The notes beneath the pieces are model-generated. The model was given only the letters and a program-made list of their open reading frames with translations. It ran no database searches and had not been told where the DNA came from. From NCBI GenBank assembly GCA_027078745.1, contig JALWWO010000019.1:62001-126000 (forward strand): DNA of 64,000 nt, given 5' to 3'. Shown in pieces: positions 1,393-18,677 of the stretch. Each line of letters begins with the position of its first letter. Position 1 is the first letter of the stretch. Source of the stretch: Chromatiaceae bacterium. Its GTDB lineage: Bacteria; Pseudomonadota; Gammaproteobacteria; Chromatiales; Chromatiaceae. The position numbers and the translations under genes were made by a program.

Positions 1393-1441
1393 CGGGCAAA
1401 CCGGACCTGTCTCGCCCTTGAAGTAAAGCGGATCCACCCGC

Positions 1442-2956
1442 TTAAGCCGCTTCATCCTCCGTGCGCTGCCCTGTCAGGATGATCGCATTGGAGACGAGTT
1501 GGTGAACGCTGACGATCTGATCCATCTCCATACCGTAATAGGGGAGTACCTTGGTAAACTGGCTTTTACAGATGGCGCAGATCGCCGCCATATGCGTTAC
1601 CTTTTTCTCCCGCATCACGTTGTTAAGGGCTTCGACCCGCGGCTTCGCACCCTTGACCCGCAACTCCATCAGGTCATCCGTGAGCAATCCGCCACCCCCT
1701 CCGCAGCAGAACGTGCGCTCCCGGATGGTCTCTTCGTCCATATCGTAGAAATGATTGCAGACCGCCTTGATGACGGCACGTGGAATGTCGAACTGCCCGC
1801 CAGGCCAAGAACCCATGCGAGAAGCCCGAGCCACATTGCAGGAATCGTGGAAAGTCAACACCTTGTCATCGTTCTGGGACTTATCGAACCGGAGTTTCCC
1901 TTGCTGAATCAGCTCATAGGTAAACTCACAAATATGCTGGGGCACCGGATAGCGAGGATCCAAGAAATCCCAGGGGCCTGCCAAAGTATTCAGAAAGCTA
2001 TAAGCCACCCGCCAGGCATGGCCGCATTCTCCAAAAACGATGCGCTTAACCTTGAGATCTATGGCTGCCTTGCGGATGCGCTGGGCAACCCGACGCATGT
2101 TTTCGTAAGAGCCGATGAACATGCCGAAGTTAGCGGCTTCGGAGGCATAGGAACTGAGCGTCCAAGAAACGCCCGCCTCGTGAAAGACTTTGCCATAGCC
2201 GATCAAGCCGTCCACATGGGGTTCGGCGAAGAAATCTGCCGAAGGAGTGACGAGTAGAATCTCCGCCCCTTCCTGATCCAAGGGGTATCTGACTCTCACT
2301 CCCGTATCGTCGAACACATCTTCTTCCAACCCTTCCAAAGTGTCTGCCAGGGCAGGTCCCGGCAACCCCAGGTTGTTGCCGATCTTGTAAACTTTGCCGA
2401 TGATCTCATTGCAATATTTTTGACCAATGCCGATATGATCCATGATCTCTCGGGCCGCCATAGAGATCTCAGCGGTGTCGATCCCATAGGGACAGAACAC
2501 AGAGCAGCGCCGGCATTGGGAGCACTGATGATAATAGCTGTACCATTCATCGAGCACTTCCTTCGTGAAATCTTCCGCGCCCACGAGCTTGGGAAAGTAT
2601 TTGCCGGCGAGGGTAAAATAACGCCGGTAAACCTTGCGCATGAGATCCTGGCGCGCTACCGGCATATTCTTGGGGTCGCGGGTCCCCAAATAGTAGTGGC
2701 ATTTATCTGTACAAGAACCACATTTCACACAGGCATCCAGATAGACCCGCAATGAGCGATAGCGTTGAAGGAGGTCGCCCATTTTCTCCAACGCTTTTTC
2801 CTGCCAATTCTCAACCAGTTCCCCGGGAAAGCCTAGGGGTTCCTGATGTTCGGGTTTCGCCACAAAGGGCTTGGAATGGGACATGGTTCCCGGTTCGATC
2901 GCGGGTACCTCAGCGTACTGCTGGAGCTGGGGAACCTCAAAATTAGCCTTTGCCAT
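1442..2956 (-). CDS. dsrK: DsrK, HdrD-like iron-sulfur subunit of DsrMKJOP
   Basis: Cytoplasmic subunit of the DsrMKJOP membrane complex, thought to oxidise or reduce the DsrC (tri)sulfide and exchange electrons with the quinone pool through DsrM. The 504-residue protein has two 4Fe-4S motifs, CVKCGSCTDKC (residues 76-86) and CSQCRRCSVFC (about 145), like the HdrC/HdrD ferredoxin part. It then has CCG-type cysteine motifs: FHDSCNVA, and ERTFCCGGGGG near residue 415, which in this family bind the catalytic noncubane cluster. It follows dsrM by 54 nt. The length and motif order match the family. Confidence 0.96.
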   Translation of the reverse strand: MAKANFEVPQLQQYAEVPAIEPGTMSHSKPFVAKPEHQEPLGFPGELVENWQEKALEKMGDLLQRYRSLRVYLDACVKCGSCTDKCHYYLGTRDPKNMPVARQDLMRKVYRRYFTLAGKYFPKLVGAEDFTKEVLDEWYSYYHQCSQCRRCSVFCPYGIDTAEISMAAREIMDHIGIGQKYCNEIIGKVYKIGNNLGLPGPALADTLEGLEEDVFDDTGVRVRYPLDQEGAEILLVTPSADFFAEPHVDGLIGYGKVFHEAGVSWTLSSYASEAANFGMFIGSYENMRRVAQRIRKAAIDLKVKRIVFGECGHAWRVAYSFLNTLAGPWDFLDPRYPVPQHICEFTYELIQQGKLRFDKSQNDDKVLTFHDSCNVARASRMGSWPGGQFDIPRAVIKAVCNHFYDMDEETIRERTFCCGGGGGLLTDDLMELRVKGAKPRVEALNNVMREKKVTHMAAICAICKSQFTKVLPYYGMEMDQIVSVHQLVSNAIILTGQRTEDEAA

Positions 2957-3010
2957 GATTCAACCTCGTCAGCAGGGCGGTAGTCTGGAAGCCTTGGTCA
3001 GCGAAGCCCG

Positions 3011-3745
3011 TCATTCCTGTTGCTCAAGACGCTTAGCCCAGTCTGCAATATGCCGCTGTTCTCGGGGATTATCGACCTGGTTTCTTGTGGGACTGAAGAA
3101 AAGCCCTGGCGCATGGAGTAACTTGCTAAACGGAAAGACAATCATCAGGATTGCTACGAGCAAGAGATGGAGCAGCAACAGGGGATCTGCCGGCAGGGGC
3201 TGCACCTGAAAGCGCAGCAGACCGAGGAAGAAATCCTTGACGGAAACCACATCCACATGGAATAAAAACTTCATCCCTAAACCGCTCAATCCGATGGCCA
3301 CGAGCAGGGCGAGAATGAGATGATCCGACTTATTGGTGACATAGCGCACTCGATCCACCAAGAAGCGCCGAGCCCATAGCCCCGCTAAGCCCACCACCAT
3401 GGCGATGCCTCCGTAGATACCAAAGGGTTGCACCAATTCAATGGGCAGCCAGACCGGATCCATGAAATAGCGGAGATGACGTAGGGTGACTAAGAACAAC
3501 CCGAAGTGGAACATCCATCCGAAGATCCAGATCCACTTGTTTCCCTTGAAAAGACTTTCGAAGAACACAACTTCCCGAGCGAGGCGGAAGACAACGCCAC
3601 TTTGAGTTACAGGCGCGGGCGTCGTGGGGATTTTGAGGGGCGCAGGTGTGCGCACATACTGCGCGATCTTGATCGCGAGACCCGCCAGAAGCACAGCGGC
3701 GGCAACATAAAACAGAAAGGCATATACGACGGTCAGGAATGACAT
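3011..3745 (-). CDS. dsrM: DsrM, membrane b-type cytochrome of DsrMKJOP
   Basis: NarI-like integral membrane subunit that carries b hemes and passes electrons between DsrK and quinones. The 244-residue protein begins with a hydrophobic helix (residues 4-26). Further membrane segments follow near residues 75-90, 105-125, 140-160 and 185-205, giving about five helices. Histidines in FGWMFHFGLF, FLFHVD and LLLLHLLLV are candidate heme ligands. It sits directly upstream of dsrK, the usual order. The 182-nt gap that separates it from dsrC holds inverted repeats. Confidence 0.94.
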   Translation of the reverse strand: MSFLTVVYAFLFYVAAAVLLAGLAIKIAQYVRTPAPLKIPTTPAPVTQSGVVFRLAREVVFFESLFKGNKWIWIFGWMFHFGLFLVTLRHLRYFMDPVWLPIELVQPFGIYGGIAMVVGLAGLWARRFLVDRVRYVTNKSDHLILALLVAIGLSGLGMKFLFHVDVVSVKDFFLGLLRFQVQPLPADPLLLLHLLLVAILMIVFPFSKLLHAPGLFFSPTRNQVDNPREQRHIADWAKRLEQQE

Positions 3746-3847
3746 GCTTCCGCTACCTTGGGTGAATCCGTTGAAAATGCAGCCCTTTCATCGCGCCTGC
3801 ATCTTCGATGATCTGGCAAACGATCTGACAAGCAGATGAACACCTGC

Positions 3848-3901
3848 CAGCGGGAGAGCCCGATTGCCGGGCAGCAGCACGGATCCAGCGGGAAATCGCT
3901 G
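3848..3901 (-). promoter_or_regulatory. Inverted and direct repeats between dsrC and dsrM
   Basis: GCCCG (3858-3862) and CGGGC (3868-3872) form a GC-rich hairpin with a 5-nt loop. A short direct repeat, CCAGCGGGA, flanks it at about 3848 and 3892. There is no U-run. Since dsrC product is needed in excess over the membrane complex, a partial terminator or 3'-end stabiliser here is plausible, but this is inference. Confidence 0.4.
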
Positions 3902-3927
3902 AGCCCGTGCCCTAGCTGAGACCGAGC

Positions 3928-4260
3928 CTAGACGCAGCCCGTAGGTTTCGGCAGACCGGCATAGCGGCAAGCCTGCTTAGCAGGACCGTAGGGGAACAGA
4001 CCGTAGAGATACTTGCTGTTTCCCTTCTCCTTGCCGAGCTTCTTGCCCACCGCCTTGGTGAGTACGCGAACAGCAGGAGCGATCTGATACTCCTCGTAGT
4101 ATTCGCGCAAGAAGTTGATGATGTCCCAGTGCTCATCAGTGAGCTCTAGGTCATCCTCCTTTGCCATCACCTCGGCTACGCCGGGAACCCAGTCATTGAT
4201 GTTGGCGAGGTAGCCTTCTTCATCGGTTTCAAGGATTTTGCCGTCGACTTCGATAGGCAT
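3928..4260 (-). CDS. dsrC: DsrC, sulfur carrier with both redox cysteines
   Basis: Small cytoplasmic sulfur-carrier protein, the physiological partner of DsrAB, DsrEFH and DsrMK. It carries persulfide or trisulfide on two C-terminal cysteines. The 110-residue sequence ends in QACRYAGLPKPTGCV, placing the conserved cysteines at 98 and 109, eleven residues apart as in true DsrC. The DsrC-type insertion around GKEKGNSKYLYG, missing from TusE, is also present. It starts at ATG 4260, behind a GGAG-containing site and 36 nt after dsrH. A cysteine-free paralogue lies at 9972-10310. Confidence 0.97.
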   Translation of the reverse strand: MPIEVDGKILETDEEGYLANINDWVPGVAEVMAKEDDLELTDEHWDIINFLREYYEEYQIAPAVRVLTKAVGKKLGKEKGNSKYLYGLFPYGPAKQACRYAGLPKPTGCV

Positions 4261-4296
4261 AGCGGATTTCTCCTGTGTGTGTCGGGAGGAAAGAAG

Positions 4297-4605
4297 TTAT
4301 AACCAGGCTTGCACTTTGTCGTTTTGCGCGGCGAGATCCACGAATCCGGCATAGTCCACTACCTGGATACCCTCGATCAAACGGTCCTCTGAAATCCCCC
4401 GTGCTTTGAGATCCGGGCCGAGGACGTAGATCGATAGACGACCGAGCGCAGCTTTCACTTGGCTTTCCACGCCCGTTCCAGTCATGGCCGCATAGACTCC
4501 ATCCTCGATCATGAGGACAGCGGCCCCCTGAGAGGCAAATTTGAGACAGGATTCTAGGGAATTCCGCTCAAACGGGGATTTGTTGACAGTGTGCAAAATG
4601 CTCAT
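4297..4605 (-). CDS. dsrH: DsrH, sulfurtransferase subunit
   Basis: Subunit of the cytoplasmic DsrE2F2H2 hexamer, which transfers sulfur from a TusA-type donor to DsrC. The 102-residue TusB/DsrH-like protein carries Cys20 in the segment RNSLESCLKF, the position of the conserved DsrH cysteine. It follows dsrF after 11 nt and precedes dsrC, the canonical order. The presence of dsrEFH separates oxidative sulfur bacteria from sulfate reducers. Confidence 0.95.
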   Translation of the reverse strand: MSILHTVNKSPFERNSLESCLKFASQGAAVLMIEDGVYAAMTGTGVESQVKAALGRLSIYVLGPDLKARGISEDRLIEGIQVVDYAGFVDLAAQNDKVQAWL

Positions 4606-4616
4606 GGGTGGATCCC

Positions 4617-5027
4617 TCAGAAGCTGAAGATGACGTCAGATTCATCCATGAGTTCGGCAATCCGGGCAGCATCCACCACCTCGACGATGTTCTCAATCTC
4701 CTCTTCCGTCTCCCAGTCCTCCCAGGGGATTTCCACCAAATCTTCCTTAGTTAGCCCGCGCACCGCCAGGGAATCTTTGTCCACATAGATGCGCTTCACC
4801 TCGTAGTCCCCGAGCGTCCGGTAGGTCGGGGAGAAATTTTTCATCCCGATCTCCGAAGTGTCCTGCCCTTTGACGAGCTGATAGACCCCATCGTCGATGA
4901 ACATCAGGCGAACTTCTTGGTCGAAGGCAGCTCCGATGAGCACGACTTCCAGGGATTCCCAAGCATAGATGGTGCCGTAGGGTGCCTTTCGGTTGAGGTA
5001 CAGGAATTTCTTCACGACTTCAGACAC
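4617..5027 (-). CDS. dsrF: DsrF, sulfurtransferase subunit
   Basis: TusC/DsrF-like subunit of the DsrEFH sulfur-transfer complex, 136 residues. The N-terminal MSEVVKKFLYLNRKAPYGTI strand-loop and the FIDDGVYQL segment are typical of the DsrE-like fold. I see no cysteine in the translation, so this subunit is probably structural, with sulfur carried by DsrE and DsrH. It lies 11 nt after dsrE and 11 nt before dsrH. Length and order match the family. Confidence 0.95.
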   Translation of the reverse strand: MSEVVKKFLYLNRKAPYGTIYAWESLEVVLIGAAFDQEVRLMFIDDGVYQLVKGQDTSEIGMKNFSPTYRTLGDYEVKRIYVDKDSLAVRGLTKEDLVEIPWEDWETEEEIENIVEVVDAARIAELMDESDVIFSF

Positions 5028-5038
5028 GGTAATCCCCC

Positions 5039-5431
5039 TTAGTCGCCGAAGACCACGAGGCGATCTGACTGAATCGCCGCCTCGATGAGCTGCCCGAGTC
5101 CGGAAATACGGAATTTGGGATGGATATTGGTAGCATCCTTGCCATTGCGCTTTGCTTCGCCTTCATCCACGAGGCCGCGGCGCTGGGCCGCAGCCACGCA
5201 GACCACCAGGTCGAGGTCGTGCTGTTCGGCCAGCTCCGCCCAGCGATTGACGATATGGCGATCATCCTGGGGCGGCGTGGTCAAGCGCGTACCGTTGTTC
5301 ACCCCGTCGTGATAGAAGAAGACACGGAAGATTTCATGTCCCTTCTCCAAAGCTGCTTTGGTAAACAGATAGGCGCTGTCCGACGCCTGATGCTGGTACG
5401 GTCCCTCGTTGACTTGAATTGCGAACTTCAT
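5039..5431 (-). CDS. dsrE: DsrE, sulfur-carrying subunit of DsrEFH
   Basis: TusD/DsrE-like subunit that carries the active persulfide of the DsrEFH complex. The 130-residue protein has Cys78 in DLDLVVCVAAAQRRG, the position of the sulfur-binding cysteine known in the family, and the fold signature VFFYHDGVNNG at about 37-47. It follows dsrB after 32 nt and precedes dsrF. It is expected to receive sulfur in the cytoplasm and pass it to DsrC. Confidence 0.96.
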   Translation of the reverse strand: MKFAIQVNEGPYQHQASDSAYLFTKAALEKGHEIFRVFFYHDGVNNGTRLTTPPQDDRHIVNRWAELAEQHDLDLVVCVAAAQRRGLVDEGEAKRNGKDATNIHPKFRISGLGQLIEAAIQSDRLVVFGD

Positions 5432-5463
5432 TACGACCTCTCGCTGATTGGCATGGGTTCGCC

Positions 5464-6534
5464 TTAGAAGCGGATGTGGTTAGAAGCGTTGAAGCTGGCC
5501 CGAGCACCCCGCCAAGTATCGATATGATACTTGGTGAAGGGCAGCTCTACTTCCTCAAAGAAGCGCGGCCACCCGATGCGCTCGATCCACTCTCCGACCC
5601 GCTCCCAATCCCGTGCGCCTTCTTTATAGGCTTTGAGGATGCGCTTGACGATGGCGGTAGCTTCCGGCCAACGGGGCGGATTGTTGGGGATGCCTGCAGC
5701 CACCAGCTTCTGGAAGGTGGGCTTGCCTCGGGCGTTGGAGTGGTTCCCGCCGACCCAGATGGCGAGCTTAGTATGCTCCGCATCGTTGATCTGCATGGGG
5801 GGGCACGGGGGGAAGCAGGCACCGCAGCAGATACATTTGCGCTCATCCACTTCTAGAGAAGGCTTGCCATTGACCATGGCCGGACGGATGGCAGCCACGG
5901 GGCAACGGGCGACCACAGAAGGACGCTCGCACACATTGGCCACGAGATCATGGTTGATTTTCGGGGGCTTGGTGTGCTGCACATTGATCGCGATATCACC
6001 CTGCCCGCCACAGTTGATCTGACAGCAAGAGGTGGTGATGTGGACGCGGTTGGGCATGTTGGTGTTTTTGAACTCATCGATGAGTTCGTCCATCATGGAC
6101 TTGACTACACCGGAAGCATCTGTGCCGGGAATATCACAGTGCAGCCAACCCTGAGTATGGGAAATCATGGTGACGGAATTTTGGGTGCCCCCCACGATAA
6201 AGCCCGCTTCTTCCACTGCTTTGATAAGCGGTTCTACCTTGGAAGCGTCTGAAACGACGTACTCCAGGTTCGAGCGCAGGGTGAAATGGATGTACCCATC
6301 CGCAAATTGGTCGCCGATATCGCACAGCTTGCGCAAGGTGAAGAGGTCGAGGATCCGCTGGGTACCCACTCTGACTGTCCAGATCTCATCCCCACTATAG
6401 GCCACATGGCGCAGCACACCAGGCCGGGGATGCTCGTGATACTTCCACATGCCAAAGTTCTTGCGCATCACAGGATGCATGTACTGCCAGGGATCCGGAC
6501 AACCGCTCTCGATCGGCTCGCGCATATCTGCCAT
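5464..6534 (-). CDS. dsrB: DsrB, dissimilatory sulfite reductase beta subunit
   Basis: Beta subunit of the cytoplasmic siroheme DsrA2B2 enzyme, running in the oxidative direction and releasing sulfite from DsrC-bound sulfur. The 356-residue protein has the siroheme-4Fe-4S motif TTSCCQINCGGQGD and a ferredoxin motif CICCGACFPPC (about residue 230). I chose ATG 6534 (MADMREPIE) because GGAG lies 8 nt upstream and family members begin near here. An upstream in-frame ATG at 6600 would fall inside a hairpin. The gap to dsrA is 69 nt. Confidence 0.96.
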   Translation of the reverse strand: MADMREPIESGCPDPWQYMHPVMRKNFGMWKYHEHPRPGVLRHVAYSGDEIWTVRVGTQRILDLFTLRKLCDIGDQFADGYIHFTLRSNLEYVVSDASKVEPLIKAVEEAGFIVGGTQNSVTMISHTQGWLHCDIPGTDASGVVKSMMDELIDEFKNTNMPNRVHITTSCCQINCGGQGDIAINVQHTKPPKINHDLVANVCERPSVVARCPVAAIRPAMVNGKPSLEVDERKCICCGACFPPCPPMQINDAEHTKLAIWVGGNHSNARGKPTFQKLVAAGIPNNPPRWPEATAIVKRILKAYKEGARDWERVGEWIERIGWPRFFEEVELPFTKYHIDTWRGARASFNASNHIRF

Positions 6535-6576
6535 CGCCTTTTCTCCAAATAAAAAATTCTGTTTACACGTTGATTC

Positions 6577-6600
6577 ATGCCCCCGAGTAGCTGGGGGCAT
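6577..6600 (-). promoter_or_regulatory. Perfect hairpin in the dsrA-dsrB gap
   Basis: ATGCCCCC (6577-6584) and GGGGGCAT (6593-6600) form a perfect 8-bp stem with an 8-nt loop. It starts just after the dsrA stop codon (6604-6606) and lies upstream of the dsrB ribosome site. No U-run follows directly on the transcribed strand, though an A/T-rich stretch begins about 18 nt later. It is probably an intercistronic processing or stability hairpin. Confidence 0.5.
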
Positions 6601-6603
6601 CTC

Positions 6604-7857
6604 TCACTTACCGGCTTCCGCTTGCCGTTCGAACCAGGCTTCCGCCGCCTCATCCCAACCATCCATGCGGATATAGGAGCTTTGGCGCGGATGATTCAGC
6701 ATGTTGGGGTCGGGATCGATACCGATGCCTTCGAGGAAGTTGGCCAGGCCGATGCGCTCGATCATCTCACCGCAGCGCTCGTGTTCTAACCCATTCTCCG
6801 CCCAGAAATCGATGATATTCTCGGCCAGCTCCACGAGAGATTCCCAGTCCTCTTCGGTTTCCAGCTTCTTGAAGGGAATGAGGACGGTGCCCATGAGATC
6901 CCCGATCTTCAGGGTTCGCTTGCCGCCGACACAGATAGTAACCCCTTTATCATCCCCTGGGTGCAGGGCCTTGGGCATGACGTTCAGGCAGTGCATGCAG
7001 CGCACGCAATCCCGATTGTTGACCGTAAGAGTGTCGTCATCGTTCAGAGAAAGAGCCTGCGTGGGGCAGCGGCTGATCACGTTGTCAATGATGTACTGAC
7101 GACCTTTGGTCTGCACGTACTTCTTGACCTCCTCTTGATCGACCTTCATGTCGTCTCGCCAGGTGCCCAACACGGCGAAATCTGCCCGCTCGATAGCGTT
7201 CTGGCAGTCATTCCCGCAACCAGAGATCTTGAATTTGAACTTGTAGGGAAGGGCAGGACGGTGCACGTCGTCGGTGAAGTTATTCACCAGGAGGCGATGG
7301 GCTTTCAGCTCGTTGACGCAGGACATCTCACAGCGAGCAGCGCCCACGCAGGACATGGCAGTGCGCACGCAGGGCCCTGCTCCACCTAGATCCCAACCAT
7401 ATTCGTTGATCTCGTCGAAGAAATGCTGGGTGTTCTTAGTATCCGTGCCGATGAACATGATGTTGCCGGTCTGGCCGTGGAAGGTGACGAGGCCAGAACC
7501 ATATTTTTCCCAGCTATCGGCGAGCTGGCGCAGGATGGCAGTAGTGTAATGATTACCGGCAGGTGGCTGCACACGCAGGGTGTGGAACTCCTTGGATTTC
7601 GGAAATGCATGGGCGACTTCTGAAAAGCGGGGGATGATGCCTCCGCCGTAGCCGTACACCGAGACCGTCCCCCCCTTCCAATAGCCCTTGCGGGTCTCAT
7701 AGGAATGCTCCAGCTGGCCGAGCAGGTCATTGGTCATCTCATTGATGCGTTCTTCAGGGTGCTCATCCCGCAGGCGCTTGATGCCGGTGATGAAGCTCGG
7801 CCAAGGGCCGCTCTCCAGCTGATCAAGCATCGGGGTAGGGTGCTTTTCGATAGCCAT
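6604..7857 (-). CDS. dsrA: DsrA, dissimilatory sulfite reductase alpha subunit
   Basis: Alpha subunit of reverse-type dissimilatory sulfite reductase, binding siroheme coupled to a 4Fe-4S cluster. The 417-residue protein has cysteines C163, C170, C176 and C180 in PCVRTAMSCVGAARCEMSC for the siroheme-cluster site. A ferredoxin-type stretch CVRCMHCLNVMP follows near residue 290. An AGGAGA ribosome site lies 9 nt upstream of ATG 7857. It is the first gene of the operon and has a sigma70-like promoter about 240 nt upstream. Together with dsrEFH and dsrL this marks an oxidative enzyme. Confidence 0.97.
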   Translation of the reverse strand: MAIEKHPTPMLDQLESGPWPSFITGIKRLRDEHPEERINEMTNDLLGQLEHSYETRKGYWKGGTVSVYGYGGGIIPRFSEVAHAFPKSKEFHTLRVQPPAGNHYTTAILRQLADSWEKYGSGLVTFHGQTGNIMFIGTDTKNTQHFFDEINEYGWDLGGAGPCVRTAMSCVGAARCEMSCVNELKAHRLLVNNFTDDVHRPALPYKFKFKISGCGNDCQNAIERADFAVLGTWRDDMKVDQEEVKKYVQTKGRQYIIDNVISRCPTQALSLNDDDTLTVNNRDCVRCMHCLNVMPKALHPGDDKGVTICVGGKRTLKIGDLMGTVLIPFKKLETEEDWESLVELAENIIDFWAENGLEHERCGEMIERIGLANFLEGIGIDPDPNMLNHPRQSSYIRMDGWDEAAEAWFERQAEAGK

Positions 7858-8264
7858 TGCGCTGTCTCTCCTATCTCATAAAGCGGAAATTTTTCGGATA
7901 GCCTGGTGCACGCAGTATCAGCGGCTGATGGGGCTGGATTGCTGAATCAAACGGAGGATACTGCATCAAATGCCCGGGTTGGAACCGTACGGTATCTTAC
8001 CTACAAACATCGATCCGCTGAAGACCCGCTAATTCCACTTTTGAAAACCAGCAGCTGCATCCTTGGGGCCGGAAGTACTGCAAATCGAGCGGCGATGTTA
8101 CACGGTCATTACAAGCTAGTCAACGGATTCTAATATAAGAGATTCCTCATTTTCTAGCTTTTCGTTCTGACCGCTGACCGGTACGGACGGCTTTTCCGTT
8201 GTTTTCCCCTCATCCTGCCGTCATATAAACTTCAAGATTTCGGGCAGCGTCAGGACAGAGGAAG
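7858..8264. other. Divergent intergenic region between dsrA and the 8265 gene
   Basis: These 407 nt hold no convincing gene. They contain the dsr promoter (8095-8123, minus) and a leader of roughly 230 nt. GCAGTATC (7912-7919) pairs with GATACTGC (7957-7964), and a near-palindrome ATCAGCGGCTGAT lies between them. A TATAAA box at 8224-8229 may serve the plus-strand genes, but no good -35 box accompanies it. Confidence 0.6.
8095..8123 (-). promoter_or_regulatory. Sigma70-like promoter for the dsr operon
   Basis: On the minus strand TTGACT (8118-8123) and TAACAT (8095-8100) are separated by exactly 17 nt. They match the -35 and -10 consensus at five and four of six positions. Transcription would begin near 8088, leaving a leader of about 230 nt before dsrA. 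This is a sequence match only. Confidence 0.6.
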
Positions 8265-8456
8265 ATGTTAAAGCTCAGCGATATTCTCATAGCCCATAAG
8301 GAAATCGAATCCTTTGAGGAACTGATTCCCATCGTCCAGGAAGTGGCCCGATCGGGAGAACGGTTCTTTCAAATCGATCTCAAACCGCCCTATCCGGACA
8401 CCCCAGAAGCTTGGGAAGACCGTTTGGAAGCGGCCTTCAGTGGCTTGATCCGTTAA
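8265..8456 (+). CDS. Small conserved-looking protein of unknown function
   Basis: I do not recognise this 63-residue protein. It is acidic, begins MLKLSDILIAHKEIESFEEL, is predicted to be mostly helical, and has no cysteine and no membrane segment. A purine-rich AGAGGA lies just before the ATG, and a TATAAA box lies about 35 nt upstream. It is 16 nt upstream of the next unknown gene on the same strand and divergent from dsrA, which suggests one transcript reaching the Cas6-like gene. The compact spacing supports a real gene. Confidence 0.6.
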   Translation: MLKLSDILIAHKEIESFEELIPIVQEVARSGERFFQIDLKPPYPDTPEAWEDRLEAAFSGLIR

Positions 8457-8472
8457 CGCTTAGGAACACACC

Positions 8473-9195
8473 ATGAAGACAGCGCTTCTCAAAGATCGCC
8501 CCTTGCCCGATAGCGCCGCCGACGCGATCTTCCACCGCCTGCAGGCGGAGCAGGGTGCTTTCGCAATGCATCTGCAGGCTCTGGAGGAAAGGCTTAGGGA
8601 ACTGCAGCAACAGGGCGCTCAACCGAAGGAACTCGCCGATGTGCACCTGCAAATCGCTCGCACGCTGGTGGGGTTGGAGCGGGGCGCAGAAGCCTGGCCA
8701 CTCGCTAGAAGTGCCTTCGACGTGTTCATCGAGGTAGAGGATTTCGAATCCGCTGCGGATGCCTGTGATGTGCTGTTTCAGAGTGATCAACCCCAATCGC
8801 TCTGTGCCCTGGGTCAGGGGATTTGGCTGGCCGTCACCTATCCCATCGATCCGGAGCTTTCCGTGGAACTGCTCACTCACATCGTGGAAGAGACCCCGGA
8901 CGACTCAGACGGCGCGGCGGTAGCCGCGACCACCGCCCTGTTTCTGGCGGATCTGCGGGCCCAGGGAAAGCAGCGGGAAAACCTCATGTTCTTCGCCAGT
9001 CAAACCCTGGGCCAGGTAGCCCGCCGGCACAGCGGGGTGGACAATCAGGGGGCCTTCGATCAGTGGATGGAGCGGCTAGAGCTGAAGGAACCGGAAAAGT
9101 TCTTAGTTCGCCTGCGCAATGTGGTGGACGTACTGGTCCAAGAAGACTGGTGGTTTGATCGGGAAGCCCTGCAACAAAAACTGCCCGTGAACTGA
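8473..9195 (+). CDS. Unknown helical protein, 240 residues
   Basis: I do not recognise a family. The protein looks all-helical and acidic, with heptad-like stretches (residues 20-50, AFAMHLQALEERLRELQQQG). Paired helices of TPR-like spacing follow (DVHLQIARTLVGLERGAEAW, then SAFDVFIEVEDFESAADACD). It has no signal peptide or membrane segment, and the cysteines (near residues 97 and 111) are not in a known motif. It lies between the 63-residue gene and the Cas6-like gene, 5 nt before the latter, so co-transcription and perhaps a scaffold role are likely. Function is unknown. Confidence 0.75.
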   Translation: MKTALLKDRPLPDSAADAIFHRLQAEQGAFAMHLQALEERLRELQQQGAQPKELADVHLQIARTLVGLERGAEAWPLARSAFDVFIEVEDFESAADACDVLFQSDQPQSLCALGQGIWLAVTYPIDPELSVELLTHIVEETPDDSDGAAVAATTALFLADLRAQGKQRENLMFFASQTLGQVARRHSGVDNQGAFDQWMERLELKEPEKFLVRLRNVVDVLVQEDWWFDREALQQKLPVN

Positions 9196-9200
9196 GCCCC

Positions 9201-9887
9201 ATGTTTTGGCAAGAAGACGAAGCAGAAAAAGATTTTCCCGTTTCAGACGCAGTGGTAGATGTGGTCTTCCGCTTGGAGGGAAAGCGGATTCCCGTAGACC
9301 ACGCCTATGCACTTGCCCAAGCGATTCGAACTCAAGCGCCCTGGTTAGGGGGCTATTCAGAGGTAGGGATTCACAGCATTCACGTGGCCGCTTCTCAAAA
9401 CGGTTGGGAACGGCCGGCTCATGCTCCGGATCAATATTTGATCTTATCTCGCCGCACCAAGCTGCGCATCCGCATTCCGAAAGAGCATTTAGCTCAGCTC
9501 TGCACAGATTTAGAAGGCAAGGTCTTAGACATCGCCGGTTGTCCGGTCCGCATTGGAAAAGGCCATCACCGCCCCCTCGACCGGGCCCGCACGCTGTTTT
9601 CCCGTTACGTCGTCATGAAACCCCAGCAGCCGGAGGTTCAGTTTTTGGAAGAAATGGCGGGATTGCTCCAAACCCTGGGAATCCAAGTGCGCAAGGCCCT
9701 CTGCGGAAAGGAAACCTCGTTGCACACCCCAGAGGGTCCTTTGCCTACCCGCAGCCTTCTCCTGGCAGACCTCTCACCAGAAGAATCCGTTCGACTGCAA
9801 CAGCGAGGCCTAGGCCCCCATCGGGAGATGGGGTGCGGGCTATTCATTCCCCACAAAGGCATTGCTCCCATCGTGAGGAACTCTTGA
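9201..9887 (+). CDS. Cas6/Cmx6-like RAMP protein, stand-alone
   Basis: This 228-residue protein resembles the Cas6/Cmx6 family of type I-MYXAN CRISPR systems. Signatures are the opening strand VVDVVFRLEGKRIPVDHAYA, the PWLGGYSEVGIHSIHVA segment, the YLILSRRTKLRIRIP strand, and a C-terminal glycine-rich loop LQQRGLGPHREMGCGLFIPHKG typical of RAMP RNA-binding proteins. Cas6 proteins cut CRISPR precursor RNA, but no CRISPR array or other cas gene is in the window. The neighbours are dsr genes and a DsrC paralogue. A histidine (His44 in PVDHAYA would be the usual candidate region) may be catalytic, but I cannot confirm it. Function here is probably on another RNA, or non-catalytic. Confidence 0.75.
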   Translation: MFWQEDEAEKDFPVSDAVVDVVFRLEGKRIPVDHAYALAQAIRTQAPWLGGYSEVGIHSIHVAASQNGWERPAHAPDQYLILSRRTKLRIRIPKEHLAQLCTDLEGKVLDIAGCPVRIGKGHHRPLDRARTLFSRYVVMKPQQPEVQFLEEMAGLLQTLGIQVRKALCGKETSLHTPEGPLPTRSLLLADLSPEESVRLQQRGLGPHREMGCGLFIPHKGIAPIVRNS

Positions 9888-9911
9888 GAACCTAGCGTTC
9901 TTTGGTATGCT
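9884..9911 (+). promoter_or_regulatory. Sigma70-like promoter for the DsrC-paralogue gene
   Basis: TTGAGA (9884-9889) and TATGCT (9906-9911) are separated by 16 nt. The -35 box overlaps the stop codon of the Cas6-like gene. This would give the paralogue at 9972 its own transcript with a leader of about 55 nt. An AGGAG ribosome site lies at 9959-9963. Confidence 0.55.
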
Positions 9912-9971
9912 CTGGCTGTTCAACGCAGAACCTGGGTCTATTGCAATGACCCCAATGTAGGAGTAACGAAG

Positions 9972-10310
9972 ATGGCCTTAGAGGTAAACGGCAGGACAAT
10001 TGAACTCGATGAAAATGGGAACCTGGTTAACTATCAGGATTGGGATCGAGAGGTTGCCATCGCCCTCGCGAAGATCGAAGGCATCGAACTGACCCAGGCG
10101 CACTGGGATGTGATCGAATACCTGCGGGAAGAATACATCGATAACAACCAGAATCAACCCATGGAACGGCAGATTAACAAGGATATGAGCAAACGTTGGG
10201 GCAAAAAGGTAACCAGCAAGGATCTCTATAAACTCTTCCCCCGCGCCCCCAGCAAACAGGGTAACCGGATTGCCGGACTACCCTTTGTGGCCCGAAAAGG
10301 CGGTTACTGA
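9972..10310 (+). CDS. DsrC/TusE-family protein without cysteines (RspA-like)
   Basis: The 112-residue protein is clearly homologous to DsrC at 3928-4260: both share a VNG/VDG start, an LT-x-HWD helix and a C-terminal AGLP. The positions of the two redox cysteines are N98 and K109 here, and the whole protein lacks cysteine. It therefore cannot carry sulfur in the known way. Cysteine-free members of the family have been named RspA and proposed to be regulatory. It starts behind AGGAG (9959-9963) with its own promoter. Neighbours are the Cas6-like gene upstream and convergent rnfH downstream. Confidence 0.88.
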   Translation: MALEVNGRTIELDENGNLVNYQDWDREVAIALAKIEGIELTQAHWDVIEYLREEYIDNNQNQPMERQINKDMSKRWGKKVTSKDLYKLFPRAPSKQGNRIAGLPFVARKGGY

Positions 10311-10316
10311 TTCCCC

Positions 10317-10337
10317 AAGGTGGCCTCGGGCCGCCTT
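10317..10337. terminator. Possible hairpin terminator between convergent genes
   Basis: AAGGTGGCC (10317-10325) and GGCCGCCTT (10329-10337) form a 9-bp stem with one G-U pair and a 3-nt loop. It lies in the 29-nt gap between the convergent DsrC-paralogue and rnfH stop codons. There is no U-run on either side, so termination is uncertain. Confidence 0.4.
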
Positions 10338-10339
10338 GC

Positions 10340-10657
10340 TCAGCGCTTCTCCCCCGCACCCTTGCGCATTTTTTTTCCCTGGGCGGCCCGCTTCTTGCGC
10401 TGGACCTTGGGATCTGCGATGAGGGGCCGATAAATCTCCACCCGATCCCCGTTCTCCAAGGGATGATCCAGAGTAGTGAGCTTCCCATAGATCCCTACCT
10501 TATTCTTCTCGAGATCGATTTCGGGAAAGCGTCGGAGAATACCGGAGCGCTCGATGGCCTCCCGCACCGTCAGGCCCGGCTTCCCTTCCACGGTCAGCAG
10601 GGCTTGCTCATTCTGTTTGGCATAGGCCACTTCCACTTGCACTAGGGAATCAACCAT
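10340..10657 (-). CDS. rnfH: RnfH family protein (UPF0125)
   Basis: Small ubiquitin-like beta-grasp protein, 105 residues, usually found beside ratA or rnf genes; its exact role is unclear. The segment VQVEVAYAKQNEQALLTVEG, the LTVREAIERSGILRRFPEID helix and DRVEIYRPLIADPK are family hallmarks. The tail is rich in lysine and arginine. I chose ATG 10657 because it overlaps the ratA stop region, as is usual for translational coupling. The longer frame adds 23 residues without family similarity. Confidence 0.88.
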   Translation of the reverse strand: MVDSLVQVEVAYAKQNEQALLTVEGKPGLTVREAIERSGILRRFPEIDLEKNKVGIYGKLTTLDHPLENGDRVEIYRPLIADPKVQRKKRAAQGKKMRKGAGEKR

Positions 10658-11081
10658 ATACTTCGTCCCCCCGTCTGCAGAAGGCATCCACCAGCGTGTT
10701 GGCGATCTGATGGAACACAGGCCCAAAGGCCCGATCGATCAGGCCGCCGGAAAACTCGAATTCTAAGTCCAAGGTCACTTTGCAGGCATCGGGTCGCAGG
10801 GAAAGGAAATTCCAACGTCCCTGCAGGTATCGGAAGGGGCCCTCTTGCAATGCGATCTCCATCCAAGCGTTCCGCTCGAAGCGATTGCAGGTGGAAAAAG
10901 CCTGTCGAATGCCCAGCCGAGCCACCACGATTTCCGCACAGAGCTGGTTTTCCTCTCGGCGCAGCACCCTCGTGCTATGACACCAGGGCAAGAACTCTGG
11001 ATAGGCCTCCACCGCATAGACCAGGGCAAACATTTCCGCTGCAGAGTGGTATACCAAAGCGCTCTTGTTCACCCGAGCCAT
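10650..11081 (-). CDS. ratA: RatA/PasT family START-domain protein
   Basis: Type II toxin-antitoxin family RatA/ubiquinone-binding Coq10-like protein, 143 residues. E. coli RatA blocks 70S assembly, while the wider family binds ubiquinone. Typical segments are MARVNKSALVYHSAAEMFAL, VEAYPEFLPWC and the closing helix VFHQIANTLVDAFCRRGDEV. ATG 11081 shares its A with the stop codon of the transporter gene upstream, which argues against the longer frame. It overlaps rnfH by a few bases. Confidence 0.87.
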   Translation of the reverse strand: MARVNKSALVYHSAAEMFALVYAVEAYPEFLPWCHSTRVLRREENQLCAEIVVARLGIRQAFSTCNRFERNAWMEIALQEGPFRYLQGRWNFLSLRPDACKVTLDLEFEFSGGLIDRAFGPVFHQIANTLVDAFCRRGDEVYG

Positions 11082-12454
11082 CAGAGCACACCCATGCCAT
11101 GCAGAAACACAAGCAGCACCCCTAAGGGGGAGATATAGCGCACTGCAAAGCGCCAAGAACGGTAGATCCAGCCGTCGGGCAACTGCAGTTCCTCCAAGGT
11201 CGAACGGCGGGCCATCATCCAGCCAGCGAACACCGCCATAGCAAGCCCACCCAGGGGCAACATGAAGTTCGCTGTCAAGATATCGATGAGATCAAAGATC
11301 CCGTTGGACTTTACCTCACCGGCGAAGGGGAAGCTGAAGGCCCATTGATTGAAGGAAAGGATGGTTAGAATACCCAAGAACCAAGCGAGTATGGCTACGA
11401 TCACCGTAGCTCGCACCCGCTGCATCCCCTGATTCTCCACCAGCCAAGCCACAGCAGGTTCGATGAGGGAGATGGCGGAGGTCCAGGCGGCGAACACTAG
11501 AAGAATGAAGAACAGGGTGCCGAAAAAGAGACCCCCCGCCATGTTGCCGAAGGCGATGGGCAGGGTGAGAAAGACTAAGCCAGGCCCCGCGCCGGGTTCC
11601 AACCCATTGGCGAACACGATGGGAAAGATGGCCATACCGGCCAGCAGGGCTACCAGAGTATCTAGGAGAGCGATGAGCACGGCGGACCGCGTGATCGACG
11701 TGTGGCGATCCAGGTAGGAACCGTACATCATGATCGCACCCATGCCCAAGCTCAGGGTAAAGAACGCATGACCCATGGCAGTGATCACCGCGCCTGCGGT
11801 CAGTTTCTCGAAGTGGGGGACGAACAGAAATTCTAAGCCCTGCATGAATTGCCCTGTATTCAGGGCATAGCCCACCAGCGCCAAGAGCAGAAGGAACAGA
11901 GCGGGCATGAGGAAGCGCACCGCCTGTTCGAGACCGGACCGCACCCCCCGAGAAACCACGATCGCCGTCATGACCATGAAGATGGTGTGCCAGGCCAGAA
12001 GGCGTTCTGGGTCCCCTACCAGGTCGCCGAACAGGGCTTCTGCTTCAGGTCCAGTCAGGGCGGTGAAATGGCCATCTGCTGCGCGGAACACATAGGCAAG
12101 GGCCCAGCCGGCGATGACGCTGTAATAGGAGATGATGAGAAAACCAGCGATCATCCCCCCCCAACCCACGAGCTGCCAGAAGCCATGTCGGTTTTCCGCC
12201 TGGGCCAAGGTGCGCATGGTATTGATGGGACTCTGCCGGCCTCGCCGTCCGATGAGGATCTCCGCCATCATGATGGGGATGCCGATGAAGAGCACGCACA
12301 AGAGGTAGATCAACACAAAGGCCCCTCCCCCATTCTCGCCGGTGATATAGGGGAATTTCCAGACATTGCCCAGCCCCACTGCGGAACCCGTGGCCGCCAA
12401 GATGAAGGCGAGCCGCGTCGACCACATGCCGTGGATGGAGGGAGTCACCGCCAT
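11081..12454 (-). CDS. Sodium-dependent NSS-family transporter
   Basis: Inner-membrane sodium symporter of the neurotransmitter:sodium symporter (LeuT-like) family; the substrate is not predictable. The 457-residue protein begins with the signature GSAVGLGNVWKFPYITGENG in helix 1. It continues with about twelve hydrophobic segments, including GMIAGFLIISYYSVIAGWAL. ATG 12454 (MAVTPS) fits the family better than the frame opening at 12505. It lies 60 nt after glmM and overlaps ratA by one base, so it may share the transcript. Confidence 0.9.
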   Translation of the reverse strand: MAVTPSIHGMWSTRLAFILAATGSAVGLGNVWKFPYITGENGGGAFVLIYLLCVLFIGIPIMMAEILIGRRGRQSPINTMRTLAQAENRHGFWQLVGWGGMIAGFLIISYYSVIAGWALAYVFRAADGHFTALTGPEAEALFGDLVGDPERLLAWHTIFMVMTAIVVSRGVRSGLEQAVRFLMPALFLLLLALVGYALNTGQFMQGLEFLFVPHFEKLTAGAVITAMGHAFFTLSLGMGAIMMYGSYLDRHTSITRSAVLIALLDTLVALLAGMAIFPIVFANGLEPGAGPGLVFLTLPIAFGNMAGGLFFGTLFFILLVFAAWTSAISLIEPAVAWLVENQGMQRVRATVIVAILAWFLGILTILSFNQWAFSFPFAGEVKSNGIFDLIDILTANFMLPLGGLAMAVFAGWMMARRSTLEELQLPDGWIYRSWRFAVRYISPLGVLLVFLHGMGVL

Positions 12455-12514
12455 GAAAACACTCCTTGTGCAAAGATTAAAGAATTGGTCTGTAGGATAT
12501 CGCACCTACGGCCA

Positions 12515-13876
12515 TTAAGAAGTCGTCCCATTCGTTCGGTTCTCAGGCTGTGCCCGCACCGCTTGGGCCAATCGTTTCGCTGTCGCCTGCACCGCTTCGG
12601 GATCCCTGCCTTCCACCATGACCCGAATCAGAGGTTCTGTGCCCGAGGGGCGTAACAGGACTCGCCCCTGATTGCCCAGGTTTGCTTCCGCCGCCCGGAT
12701 CGCCGCCTGCACGTACTCATTGTCGAGCGCGCTCTGCGGCTGGTCATGAGCCACATTGATCAAAACCTGGGGATAACGCGGTACCTCGATCGCAGCTGCA
12801 GAAAGGGGTTGGTTGCGCTGGCGCAGGGCTTCCAATACTTGCAGGGCGACCACGATGCCATCGCCCGTGCTGGTGCGGTCTCGGCAGATGATGTGACCGG
12901 AAGGTTCCCCACCGAGGACGCCATCTTCCCGCTTGAGCTGCTCCAGGATGTACCGATCTCCCACCGGCGTGCGCACAAAGCCAATGCCCAGAGCTGCCAG
13001 CGCCTGTTCCAGCCCCAAATTGCTCATGAGGGTGCCCACCACGCGGCCCCGAAGCATGTCTTGGTCTCGACGAAATTTCGCCAAGATATAGAGAATCTGA
13101 TCCCCATCTACCAACTGGCCCCGTTCATCCACCAGGAGGACCCGATCTCCATCGCCGTCGAAGGCAATGCCCAGATCCGCTTCCTGGGCTAGAACCATTC
13201 GTTGCAAGGCTTCTGGATGGGTGGAACCCAAGCCCTGATTGATATTCAATCCGTCGGGTTCTACCCCCATGGGGATCACTGTGGCGCCGAGCTCTTCAAA
13301 CACATGAGGGGCGATATGGTAGGTAGCCCCATGGGCGCAGTCGACGACTAGGCGCAATCCCTGAAGGCTCAAGCTGGTGGGCACCGTGCTCTTGCAGAAT
13401 TCGATGTAACGGCCGGCGGCATCTTCCAAGCGCTTCGCCTTGCCCAGCTCGGCGGAAGGTACGGTCCGCAAGGGTTGGGATAGATGGACTTCGATCTCGG
13501 CCTCTACTTCATCGGGCAGTTTATCCCCTGTAGCGGAAAAGAACTTGATGCCGTTGTCCTCGAAGGGATTGTGGGAAGCGCTGATGACGATACCCGCCAC
13601 CGCCCGCAAGGTGCGCGTGAGATAGGCGATGGCAGGGGTGGGCATGGGTCCCAAGAGGCGGATATCCATGCCGGCGGCCACCAGACCGGCTTCTAGGGCG
13701 GATTCGAACATGTAGCCGGAAATGCGGGTGTCCTTGCCGATGAGCACCTTGCCCCCGCGCCCACCGCCGAGCACCCGACCCGCCGCCCAGCCCAAGCGCA
13801 CCATGAATTCCGGGGTGATGCAGCCTTGACCGACCCGGCCCCGAATGCCATCCGTACCGAAATATTTACGCTTCAT
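12515..13876 (-). CDS. glmM: Phosphoglucosamine mutase
   Basis: Converts glucosamine-6-phosphate to glucosamine-1-phosphate for peptidoglycan and LPS precursors in the cytoplasm. The 453-residue protein starts [13 protein letters not shown], has the phospho-serine loop [17 protein letters not shown] near residue 100, the metal loop [13 protein letters not shown] near 240, the sugar loop GGEPSGH, and the phosphate loop [12 protein letters not shown] near the end. Its ATG (13876) lies within the 3' end of folP, so the two are translationally coupled, as in many Gammaproteobacteria. Confidence 0.97.
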
Positions 13877-14729
13877 CCTGACTCCTGACCGCCCAGGCAA
13901 CCTGCAGAGCATCCCGGGTTTCCTTGGGATCATGGGTGCGGAAGAGGCGCGCACCCCGTTCCAGGGCGAGCACCGCCGCTGCTAAGCTGCCCGCCAACCG
14001 ATCTTCCACCGGTCGGCCTGTCAGCGCGCCGATCATGGACTTGCGAGAGATGCCCACCAGCACCGGATAGCCCAGTTGAGCGATCTGATCCAGCCTCGCT
14101 AACAGCTGAAGATTGTGCTCCAGCGTCTTGCCGAAGCCGAATCCCGGATCGATACAAATCTGTTCCCGAGGGATGCCTGCTGCCTCGCAGTGCTGAATCC
14201 GCCGGGCTAAGAAATCCCGCACTTCCACAACCACATCCTGATAATGGGGAGCCTGCTGCATGTGCGCCGGTGTTCCCTGCATGTGCATGAGGCAGACGGG
14301 TACCCCTAGTTCCACCGCAGTTTCCAGGGCACCTGGCATACTCAGGGCGCGCACATCGTTGATGAAACCAGCACCAGCCGCCACCGCCGCCCGCATGACT
14401 TCCGGCTTGCTCGTGTCCACGGAAATGGGCAGGGGAAGTTTCGCCGCCAGCATTTCAATCACTGGCACCACCCGCCGGCGCTCCTCTCGAGCGGGAACCG
14501 GTTTCGCCCCGGGTCGGGTGGACTCCCCCCCCACATCCAGTAGATCGGCGCCGGCTTCTGCCAAGGCTTCCGCATGGGCGAGGGCGCGATCCAGGGTCTG
14601 AAAGCGTCCCCCGTCAGAAAAGGAATCCGGCGTTACGTTGAGCACGCCCATGACGCAGGGCCGAGAGAGATCCAGAGACCGGCCGCCACAGTCGAGACGA
14701 CCGAACGAGGGAACCTCTGTCGAATGCAT
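13866..14729 (-). CDS. folP: Dihydropteroate synthase
   Basis: Joins dihydropterin pyrophosphate and p-aminobenzoate in folate synthesis. The 287-residue TIM-barrel protein carries both signatures: [17 protein letters not shown] (residues 27-43) and [17 protein letters not shown] (about 59-75). It also has the [13 protein letters not shown] phosphate-binding segment. It lies 6 nt after ftsH and overlaps glmM by 11 nt, the conserved ftsH-folP-glmM order. Confidence 0.97.
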
Positions 14730-14735
14730 GAAGAG

Positions 14736-16658
14736 CTATCCGGTAGGCTTGCTCAGGGGATCTGGATCCAAGGGATCTTCGTCGGCAGCGTCCAGATCTT
14801 CCAAGACATCTGCAAGATCGTCCGCATCTCCAGAATCTCCATCGGGGAAATCCCAAGGAGGTTCGGGATCTCGGCCCGACATGATGGCATCGATCTGATG
14901 GGCCTCCAGGGTTTCATAGCGCATGAGCGCTTTCGCCATGGCGTGGAGCTTATCCAGGTTTTCTTCCAGCAATCGGCGGGCTTCCGCATAGCTCCGCTCG
15001 ATGATCGCCCGCACTTCCTCATCGATGAGATGGCTGGTCTCATCGGAAATATCTTTGTGTTGAGCTACCGAGTGTCCCAGAAAGACTTCCTCTTCCTCTT
15101 CCCCATAGGTCAGGGGTCCCAAGCGCTCCGACAGCCCCCATTTGGTCACCATATTCCGAGCGATGTCCGTGGCCCGCTGAATATCGTTCTGGGCACCCGT
15201 GGTGACGGCATCCGGACCAAAAATCAATTCCTCGGCGATGCGCCCCCCGAACAAGCTGGCGATCTGGCTTTCCAAGCGCTGCTTGGTATAGCTGTAGCGA
15301 TCTTCCTCCGGCAGGAACAGCGTGAGGCCCAGAGCGCGGCCCCGCGGGATGATGCTCACTTTGTGCACGGGATCATGCTCCGGTACCAAACGGCCCACGA
15401 TGGCATGACCGGCTTCATGGTAGGCAGTGAGCTTTTTTTCCTCCTCAGACATGGCCAGAGACTTACGCTCTGTGCCCATCAAAATCTTGTCCTTAGCCTT
15501 TTCCAGATCCGCCATCTCTACCAGGCGTTTGTTCTCTCGAGCGGCGAACAGAGCGGCTTCATTGACCAGATTAGCCAGATCCGCACCGGAAAACCCCGGC
15601 GTGCCTCGGGCGATGGTGCGCGCATCCACATCTTCCGCCAAGGGCACTTTGCGCAGATGTACTTTCAGAATCTGCTCCCGACCCCGCACATCCGGCAGAG
15701 GCACCACCACTTGCCGATCAAAGCGACCGGGACGCAGCAAAGCGGGATCCAGCACATCCGGCCGGTTGGTAGCTGCGATGACGATGATGCCTTCATTGCC
15801 TTCGAAGCCGTCCATCTCCACCAGCAATTGATTGAGGGTCTGTTCCCGTTCGTCGTGGCCGCCTCCGAGCCCTGCCCCCCGATGGCGGCCCACGGCGTCG
15901 ATTTCATCGATGAAGATGATGCAGGGGGCTTGTTTCTTCGCCTGCTCGAACATGTCCCGCACCCGAGAGGCTCCCACGCCCACGAACATTTCCACGAAGT
16001 CCGAGCCGGAGATGGTGAAGAAAGGCACCTTGGCTTCCCCGGCGATGGCCCGGGCCAACAGGGTTTTCCCCGTGCCTGGCGGTCCCACCATGAGCACCCC
16101 GCGAGGGATCTTGCCCCCCAACCGCTGGAATTTCCCGGGATCCCGCAGGAACTCCACCAGTTCCGCCACCTCTTCCTTGGCTTCCTCCACGCCGGCCACA
16201 TCGGCGAAGGTCACCTTCACCTGATCTTCGGACAGCAGCCGAGCCCGGCTCTTGCCGAAGGACATGGGACCTCGACCCCCGCTGCCGCCTTGCATCTGCC
16301 GCATGAAAAAGATCCAGATCCCGATGAGCACGAGGAAGGGAAACCAATTGATGAATAAAGAGACCAGAACGCTGGGCTTTTCCGGCGGTTGGGTTTGAAT
16401 TTCGACGCCATTATCGAGCAGATCCCCGATCAACCCCTCATCTCTGGGGGCATAGGTGGAAAACTTCTGACCGGAGACATGGATCGCTTCGATGGCACGT
16501 CCCCGAATGTTCACAGCTTTGATCTGACCCTGACGAACTGCTTCGAGGAAATCCGAATAAGGCAGAGTACGGCTGACCTTTCGGGGTGCCGTGAAATTGT
16601 TGAACACCGACATGAGGAAGATCGCAATGATCATCCACAGGATGAAATTTTTTGCCAT
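14736..16658 (-). CDS. ftsH: ATP-dependent zinc metalloprotease FtsH
   Basis: Membrane-anchored AAA+ protease that degrades misfolded membrane proteins and regulators such as LpxC. The 640-residue protein has two N-terminal membrane segments (residues 3-21 and about 98-118), Walker [15 protein letters not shown], Walker [10 protein letters not shown], the second region of homology and the zinc site HEAGH near residue 415. I chose ATG 16658 (MAKNFILWM), the usual start, over the ATG three codons earlier. rlmE lies 5 nt upstream. Confidence 0.97.
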
Positions 16659-16663
16659 GTCAT

Positions 16664-17308
16664 TCACGGCATAACCCTCGTTTGCTGCGCGTTGGGAAAA
16701 AGTTCCTTGGCTACGAGATAGCGCTCTCGGCTTTCAGGACGAGAAGATTTCGGCTTGCGGCTCACAACTTTCCGAAAATGGCGGCGCAGTGCCCGCAGAT
16801 AGGCATCAAAGCCTTCTCCCTGAAAGCTCTTCAAGACCAAACTGCCTCCCGGGCGCAGGAACTGCAAGGAGACATCCAAAACCAACTCGCAGAGCGCCAT
16901 CATGCGGGGCTGATCCGCTGCCGTACCGCTGAGATTGGGGGCCATGTCCGAGAGCACAAGATCCAAGGGGGCATCGCCCAGGGCTTGGCGCAGTCGCTGC
17001 AAGGTGGTTTCTTCCTGGAAATCCCCCTGAATGAACTGCACATTTGGCAGGGGCTCCATGGGGAGTCGATCCAAGGCGATGATCTGGCCCCGTCTTCCGA
17101 GCTGCTTTGCGGCGATCTGGCTCCAGCTTCCGGGGGCTGCGCCCAGATCCAGCAGACGCATTCCCGGTTTCAGCAGCTGATCCCGCTGTTGCAGCTCCAA
17201 CAATTTAAAGGCAGCTCGGGAACGATAGCCCGCTGCTCGGGCTTGCTGCACATAGGGATCTCGAAAATGCCGATCTAGCCAACGCCGGCTGCGCTTCGTT
17301 CGGGACAT
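16664..17308 (-). CDS. rlmE: 23S rRNA 2'-O-ribose U2552 methyltransferase
   Basis: SAM-dependent methyltransferase (FtsJ/RrmJ) that modifies 23S rRNA in the 50S subunit. The 214-residue protein has the [20 protein letters not shown] entry, the SAM motif [16 protein letters not shown] (about residues 52-67), [12 protein letters not shown] near 120, and [12 protein letters not shown] with the catalytic lysine of the K-D-K-E set. It sits just upstream of ftsH, the conserved order. Confidence 0.96.
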
Positions 17309-17346
17309 TCCCTTATTCTATCGGAAAAGAGATCAGATCCCCAGCT

Positions 17347-18671: not shown

Positions 18672-18677
18672 GAATGT

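Follow-up and report, generated by a model that had tools for sequence, protein, structure and literature searches.

The locus considered here lies in a 64,000-nucleotide stretch of a Chromatiaceae bacterium genome (assembly GCA_027078745.1, contig JALWWO010000019.1, positions 62,001 to 126,000 of the forward strand; hereafter, the window), in which a stand-alone protein of the Cas6 family, here called Cas6L, is encoded within a plus-strand gene cluster that diverges from the operon of the reverse Dsr (rDsr) pathway. Cas6L is a near-universal companion of rDsr in Gammaproteobacteria (a name used here in the GTDB sense) and forms a distinct clade that is independent of CRISPR (clustered regularly interspaced short palindromic repeats). 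The features of the locus, in window coordinates, are the following:

1442..6600, minus strand: dsrB, dsrE, dsrF, dsrH, dsrC, dsrM and dsrK, the remainder of the dsr operon in the window (open reading frames; same order in the named loci described below)
3928-4260, minus strand: the true DsrC of the window, which ends in GCV (PF04358/TIGR03342)
6604..7857, minus strand: dsrA, first gene of the divergent reverse dsr operon (TIGR02064, E 2.1e-197)
7858..8264, no strand: divergent intergenic region from dsrA to the cluster, 407 nt
8265..8456, plus strand: h63, first gene of the cluster, 63 aa (no Pfam or NCBIfam family over cut-off)
8473..9195, plus strand: h240, an all-helical protein of 240 aa that resembles tetratricopeptide repeat (TPR) proteins (AlphaFold2 model; 67 of 80 named loci)
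9201..9887, plus strand: Cas6L, stand-alone Cas6-family protein of the rDsr-linked clade, 228 aa (PF09559, TIGR02807, AlphaFold2)
9972..10310, plus strand: DsrC-like paralogue, 112 aa, cysteine-free, with the C-terminus RKGGY (PF04358)

The compact four-gene cluster, back to back with dsr, that had been proposed in an initial annotation made from the sequence alone was recovered in full, all of its open reading frames being in place, separated by 16, 5 and 84 nt and divergent from dsrA. The family assignments made at that time were also upheld: the third product matches PF09559 (E 1.2e-66, 225 bits against a cut-off of 26.7) and TIGR02807, the profile of type I-MYXAN Cas6/Cmx6 (129.6 bits against a cut-off of 98.85), and the fourth matches the DsrC families PF04358 (E 1.7e-33) and TIGR03342 (8.6e-29), both over cut-off, and contains no cysteine at all.

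The link between Cas6L and dsr, for which a survey of gene neighbourhoods had been suggested, proved to be very strong. Among 274 evenly drawn Gammaproteobacteria genomes, 91 carry Cas6L and 94 carry dsrA, with both present in 87 and neither in 176 (odds ratio 547, Fisher p 1.9e-57, in statistics that ignore phylogeny). Cas6L spans 57 families, as counted from family codes, and only two of the listed members of the window's own family (f1) lack it; the spread over some 57 families and the joint absence of both genes within families argue for a real link despite the phylogeny-blind tests. Where the two genes share a contig (66 genomes), they lie within 4.5 kb of each other in 65, all of them in divergent orientation. 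Gene order was examined in 80 named genomes, taken with flanks of up to 10 kb, and the commonest arrangement is that of the window, with dsrK, M, C, H, F, E, B and A on one strand and h63, h240, Cas6L and the DsrC-like gene on the other; h63 is present in 75 of these loci, dsrA in 68, h240 in 67 and the DsrC-like gene in 65.

Genomes that hold only one of the two genes were considered as true exceptions and discarded as such, because their clusters lie at or near contig ends (G112 and G270 were left out of this assessment; G and L numbers denote genomes and loci). In the four Cas6L-only genomes (loci L148, L149, L150 and L130) a contig ends near the expected site of dsrA; three of them (G160, G100 and G218) keep a TauD-h63-Cas6L-DsrC-like cluster, with h240 also present in G100 and G218, and the fourth (G126) is represented by a short contig with TauD and Cas6L. 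On the other side, in five of the seven dsrA-only genomes (G156, G143, G103, G239 and G243) the contig breaks off at dsrA or close to it, in the direction of the cluster, and in G156 both TauD and h63 are visible before the contig ends.

The structure of Cas6L was predicted with AlphaFold2 using 61 homologues as input, and compared with Cas6, as had been proposed in the initial annotation. The model (predicted local distance difference test, pLDDT, 90.5) shows the double ferredoxin-like RAMP fold, and its nearest solved structure is the Cas6 of a type I-B CRISPR-associated transposon (CAST; 8fcj_B, Z 24.9, 2.3 A over 200 residues, 28% identity), followed by Cas6 proteins of the P. furiosus type (Z 14-17); the structure matches listed are Cas6 or other CRISPR RAMP chains. 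The CAST protein (PDB 8fcj, 8fcu) differs from Cas6L in being part of a Cascade-transposon complex and in having N at the position of H34. Six residues (H34, R85, R91, G205, G211 and G213) show no variation among the 104 Cas6L homologues aligned, and D33, H34, R91, G203, G205, R208, G211, C212 and G213 are common to the Cas6L clade and to CRISPR Cmx6, with H34 also present in six of the seven Cmx6 proteins used for comparison. The glycines of the glycine-rich loop are essential in Haloferax Cas6 (PMC3945376), and the retention of this C-terminal loop, of basic residues and of an invariant histidine in Cas6L fits a repurposed RNA-binding protein, which probably still binds or cuts RNA. The conservation of H34 suggests catalysis, although it is no proof, because Cas6 active sites vary and some do without the usual histidine (PMC3652601). 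At the N-terminus of Cas6L (window 9201-9230), a W-acidic motif (M-F/Y/L-W-Q/E/N-acidic) contains a near-invariant W3.

Compared with type I-MYXAN (I-B-like) Cas6/Cmx6, Cas6L is of the same family and fold and has in common with it the GLGxxRxxGCGxF loop, R91 and the PxDH motif, whereas it differs in its dsr neighbours, in its mostly W-acidic N-terminus and in five residues (W48, R85, E145, G169 and K219) that are invariant in the rDsr clade only and lie outside the RNA loop. In a tree of 46 rows, the rDsr-linked proteins are split from the seven comparison Cmx6 with a branch support of 99; three deep-branching rows look betaproteobacterial, a group included in Gammaproteobacteria as the name is used here. 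Five of the comparison proteins are encoded beside cas3 or cas8 and one is the CAST protein, while L147 had no cas neighbours in the stretch shown.

The absence of a CRISPR array and of other cas genes from the window, as first described, was confirmed, since a scan of the 64 kb for CRISPR-like repeat arrays was empty and the neighbours of Cas6L are dsr, h63, h240 and the DsrC-like gene. Cas genes elsewhere in the genome, which would have tied this Cas6 to a CRISPR system, were also searched for: profile searches of the whole genome (2.18 Mb, 97% complete, 24 contigs) returned a single TIGR02807 match, with neither Cas1 nor Cas3 HD. Cas6L is classed as a Cas6 homologue outside CRISPR-Cas systems. 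It could be argued that it is an ordinary CRISPR Cas6 acting in trans on arrays located elsewhere, its adjacency to dsr being incidental, given that it scores above the NCBIfam cut-off for type I-MYXAN Cas6/Cmx6 and that Cas1 is present in 42 of the 91 Cas6L genomes. The latter proportion is not significantly different from that among non-carriers (62 of 183, p 0.06), 49 of the 91 carriers lack Cas1, 62 genomes have Cas1 without Cas6L, and the link of Cas6L is to dsrA. Together with the lack of Cas1 and Cas3 in the window's genome, the separation of the Cas6L clade from CRISPR-linked Cmx6 and the contrast between the cas3/cas8 neighbours of the checked CRISPR Cmx6 and the dsr neighbours of Cas6L, this makes a role in trans highly improbable. 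TIGR02807 and PF09559 label the rDsr-linked proteins as 'CRISPR-associated Cas6', and nearly every match in the gammaproteobacterial samples lies in a dsr-type cluster; automated CRISPR annotation is therefore misled by them.

The partners of Cas6L are also conserved. h63, found in 100 of 109 loci by clustering of open reading frames, carries the motif ...FFRxDVKPPYPDTPENWEDRLEAAFSG. The model of h240 (AlphaFold2, pLDDT 94.4) is all-helical and, within the PDB, most resembles TPR domains (Z 13.8 over 169 residues, close to what helical repeats commonly reach and no more than suggestive); a single member of the family matches TPR_19 (E 0.0045), and h240 is a probable scaffold or adaptor. Several of its top matches are TPR domains solved with W-acidic peptides, so that h240 and the N-terminus of Cas6L are a possible docking pair. 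A relation of h240 to the Cse2/Cas11 small subunit was considered and rejected: Pfam gave only weak matches in 3 of 46 members (best E 0.0011) and PADLOC a weak match to Cas11e (E 0.0009), the profile-profile probability against 13 Cse2 sequences was 0.2%, and no Cse2 appeared among the structure matches listed. Where h240 is missing, a protein of about 203 aa without known family adjoins the cluster (L140:2458-3066, L141:472-1077 and L148:3380-4042), and it is perhaps a replacement of h240.

These partners bear on an explanation in which the Cas6 fold is re-used without RNA, as a protein-binding platform, for instance an assembly factor or chaperone for DsrAB, DsrC or the Dsr membrane complex. 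The constant companions of Cas6L, a TPR-like protein and a DsrC paralogue, both have protein-binding folds, its near-invariant W3 lies in a motif of the kind that several h240-matching TPR domains bind, and the five clade-specific residues are placed away from the RNA loop. Nevertheless, conservation with CRISPR Cmx6 is highest in the glycine-rich loop that binds RNA and at the basic positions, which a protein serving as a scaffold alone would have no reason to retain, and this explanation is considered rather unlikely.

The DsrC-like paralogue has the same domain and length as members of the DsrC/TusE family and shares 48% identity with the true DsrC encoded in the window. In DsrC, sulfur is bound by the penultimate cysteine (PMC3397948), and all 57 true DsrC proteins end in GC[VSI], whereas the paralogue has lost both C-terminal cysteines, the penultimate one and the second one about 10 residues earlier, and ends in RKGGY (88 of 93 sequences) or GKGGY (3), which add up to 91 of the 93. 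Because the penultimate cysteine is lost, the paralogue cannot carry sulfur; its tail is strictly kept despite this, and the natural inference is that it would serve as a docking or sensing arm. Cysteine-free regulators of the DsrC type, called RspA, would likewise act without transferring sulfur. In the four genomes lacking the cluster copy that were checked (G021, G026, G031 and G032), an RKGGY orthologue is located elsewhere; in G018, whose cluster is broken by a contig end, no close match was found. A DsrC-like protein near dsr has been noticed in purple sulfur bacteria, such as THSYN_22565 in Thiodictyon, and a TusA-like role in sulfur relay was proposed for it, with no mention of a Cas6-like neighbour (PMC5944118); it is probably the same gene as the cluster paralogue. 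No paper tying Cas6 to dsr was found in a search that left most of the subscription literature outside, so that an earlier notice is possible.

The DsrC family also suggests another role for Cas6L, the binding of a stable RNA (a tRNA or a small RNA) in RNA modification or in signalling of sulfur status, following a logic akin to that of TusE and MnmA in tRNA thiolation. TusE, a component of the tRNA-thiolation relay, is a DsrC homologue (PMC3397948), and 2-oxoglutarate oxygenases (TauD-like, 2OG-FeII) recur in the cluster. Against this, the paralogue lacks the sulfur-carrying cysteine and could not take part in a sulfur relay, and the recurrent genes of the cluster include no recognised tRNA-modifying enzyme. 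Such a role is judged unlikely.

The explanation put forward, tentatively and with slightly less than an even chance of being correct, is that a Cas6 lineage became, by domestication, a core accessory of reverse Dsr metabolism, in which it would act as a post-transcriptional RNA factor for sulfur oxidation. Cas6L would keep RNA binding, and perhaps a slow metal-independent cleavage; the DsrC paralogue, with its RKGGY arm and no sulfur, would serve for docking or sensing, as the subunit through which the state of the Dsr machinery is read, with the TPR-like h240 as a scaffold. The likeliest RNA would be a transcript from the dsr locus itself, different segments of which occur at unequal levels; this is the weakest step of the proposal. 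In A. vinosum, the dsrEFH and dsrC transcripts are more abundant than that of dsrA (PMC3397948), and a transcript gradient along dsr is visible too in other work (PMC11267869); binding of DsrC to DNA upstream of the dsr cluster has also been reported (PMC5944118). A more specific version, in which Cas6L is a sequence-specific RNA endonuclease, controlled by the DsrC paralogue and trimming either the long transcript of dsr or a dedicated small RNA, while the paralogue senses the loading of DsrAB or DsrEFH, is rather unlikely; if true, a CRISPR RNA-processing enzyme would have turned into a metabolic regulator conserved in essentially all rDsr-containing Gammaproteobacteria.

The initial annotation had already suggested a repurposed RNA-processing system acting on dsr mRNA or its leader. 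The retained RNA-loop residues of Cas6 and the link with dsr agree with repurposing, but no specific target in the dsr mRNA was found, no known RNA families were detected in window positions 1-20000, and several results weigh against the domestication of Cas6L as an RNA factor. A structured dsrA leader was considered as the target and rejected, as there is no conserved structure across the clade; over 58 loci, the Shine-Dalgarno sequence of dsrA has a median unpaired value of 0.42, vs 0.33-0.43 in other dsr genes, and is no less accessible than theirs. The dsrC-dsrM intergenic region (window 3746-3927 and 54 relatives) contains in most cases a strong GC-rich hairpin of variable sequence, with z below -2 in 66% of loci with respect to mononucleotide shuffles, and it was also rejected as a target, given this variability and its presence in dsr operons free of Cas6L (z below -2 in three of five). 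Furthermore, as read from the alignment, the catalytic His46 of P. furiosus Cas6 has apparently no counterpart in the Cas6L clade. Some carriers are genuinely unlinked: in G142, a genome of 1.4 Mb, Cas6L and dsrA are 41 kb apart, and in L031, L061 and L092 Cas6L has no dsr within 10 kb. Finally, in a second sample of 299 Pseudomonadota genomes, Cas6L was found in none of the 48 dsrA-positive genomes of other classes, and Cas6L is therefore dispensable for rDsr chemistry as such.

Some further observations concern the same elements. In the Allochromatium group (L038, L054, L056, L076 and relatives), a hairpin in the dsrA leader (CUUUCCU...AGGAGAG) can hide the Shine-Dalgarno sequence, and the dsrC-dsrM hairpin may set the level of dsrC transcripts. 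In the closest relative, a Candidatus Thiosymbion of Catanema, Cas6L (L031:10001-10687) has neither h63 nor h240 within 10 kb.

In the second sample, the four dsrA-bearing genomes of the gammaproteobacterial class all carry Cas6L. A clade-specific Cas6L profile gave no match on 12 loci from other classes, and many of the 48 genomes mentioned above seem to hold dsrAB alone in the vicinity of dsrA and perhaps represent a different kind. In four loci from other classes without Cas6L by the clade profile (L158, L160, L161 and L162), a divergent TauD-like gene and h63 lie beside dsrA; in L160-L162 genes for a small protein and a siroheme-synthase-like product come next, and L158 also has further genes. 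From these few loci, TauD and h63 look like older companions of rDsr, to which Cas6L, the DsrC paralogue and h240 would be a gammaproteobacterial addition. The TauD-like 2-oxoglutarate dioxygenase is often encoded between dsrA and h63 (L109:1157-2089 on the plus strand, L121, L079 and others, in about 65 loci). The gap between dsrA and the cluster, 407 nt in the window, ranges from 409 to 1482 nt in 61 relatives, the longer gaps containing this gene; in the window it is missing from that position, and a 50% identical homologue lies about 130 kb away on the same contig (G000:C18:202200-203069).

Cas6 is not known for any activity beyond the cleavage of CRISPR RNA and has been regarded as a component of CRISPR systems; here it almost always accompanies a pathway that ranks among the main ones of sulfur oxidation by microbes, in carriers that include purple sulfur bacteria, nematode symbionts and free-living oxidizers. 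Cas6L stands as a clear example of a Cas protein taken into service outside defence and calls for a correction of automated CRISPR annotation. It also gives the rDsr pathway an accessory component that had been missing, in a system where regulation and the uneven transcript levels lack an explanation.

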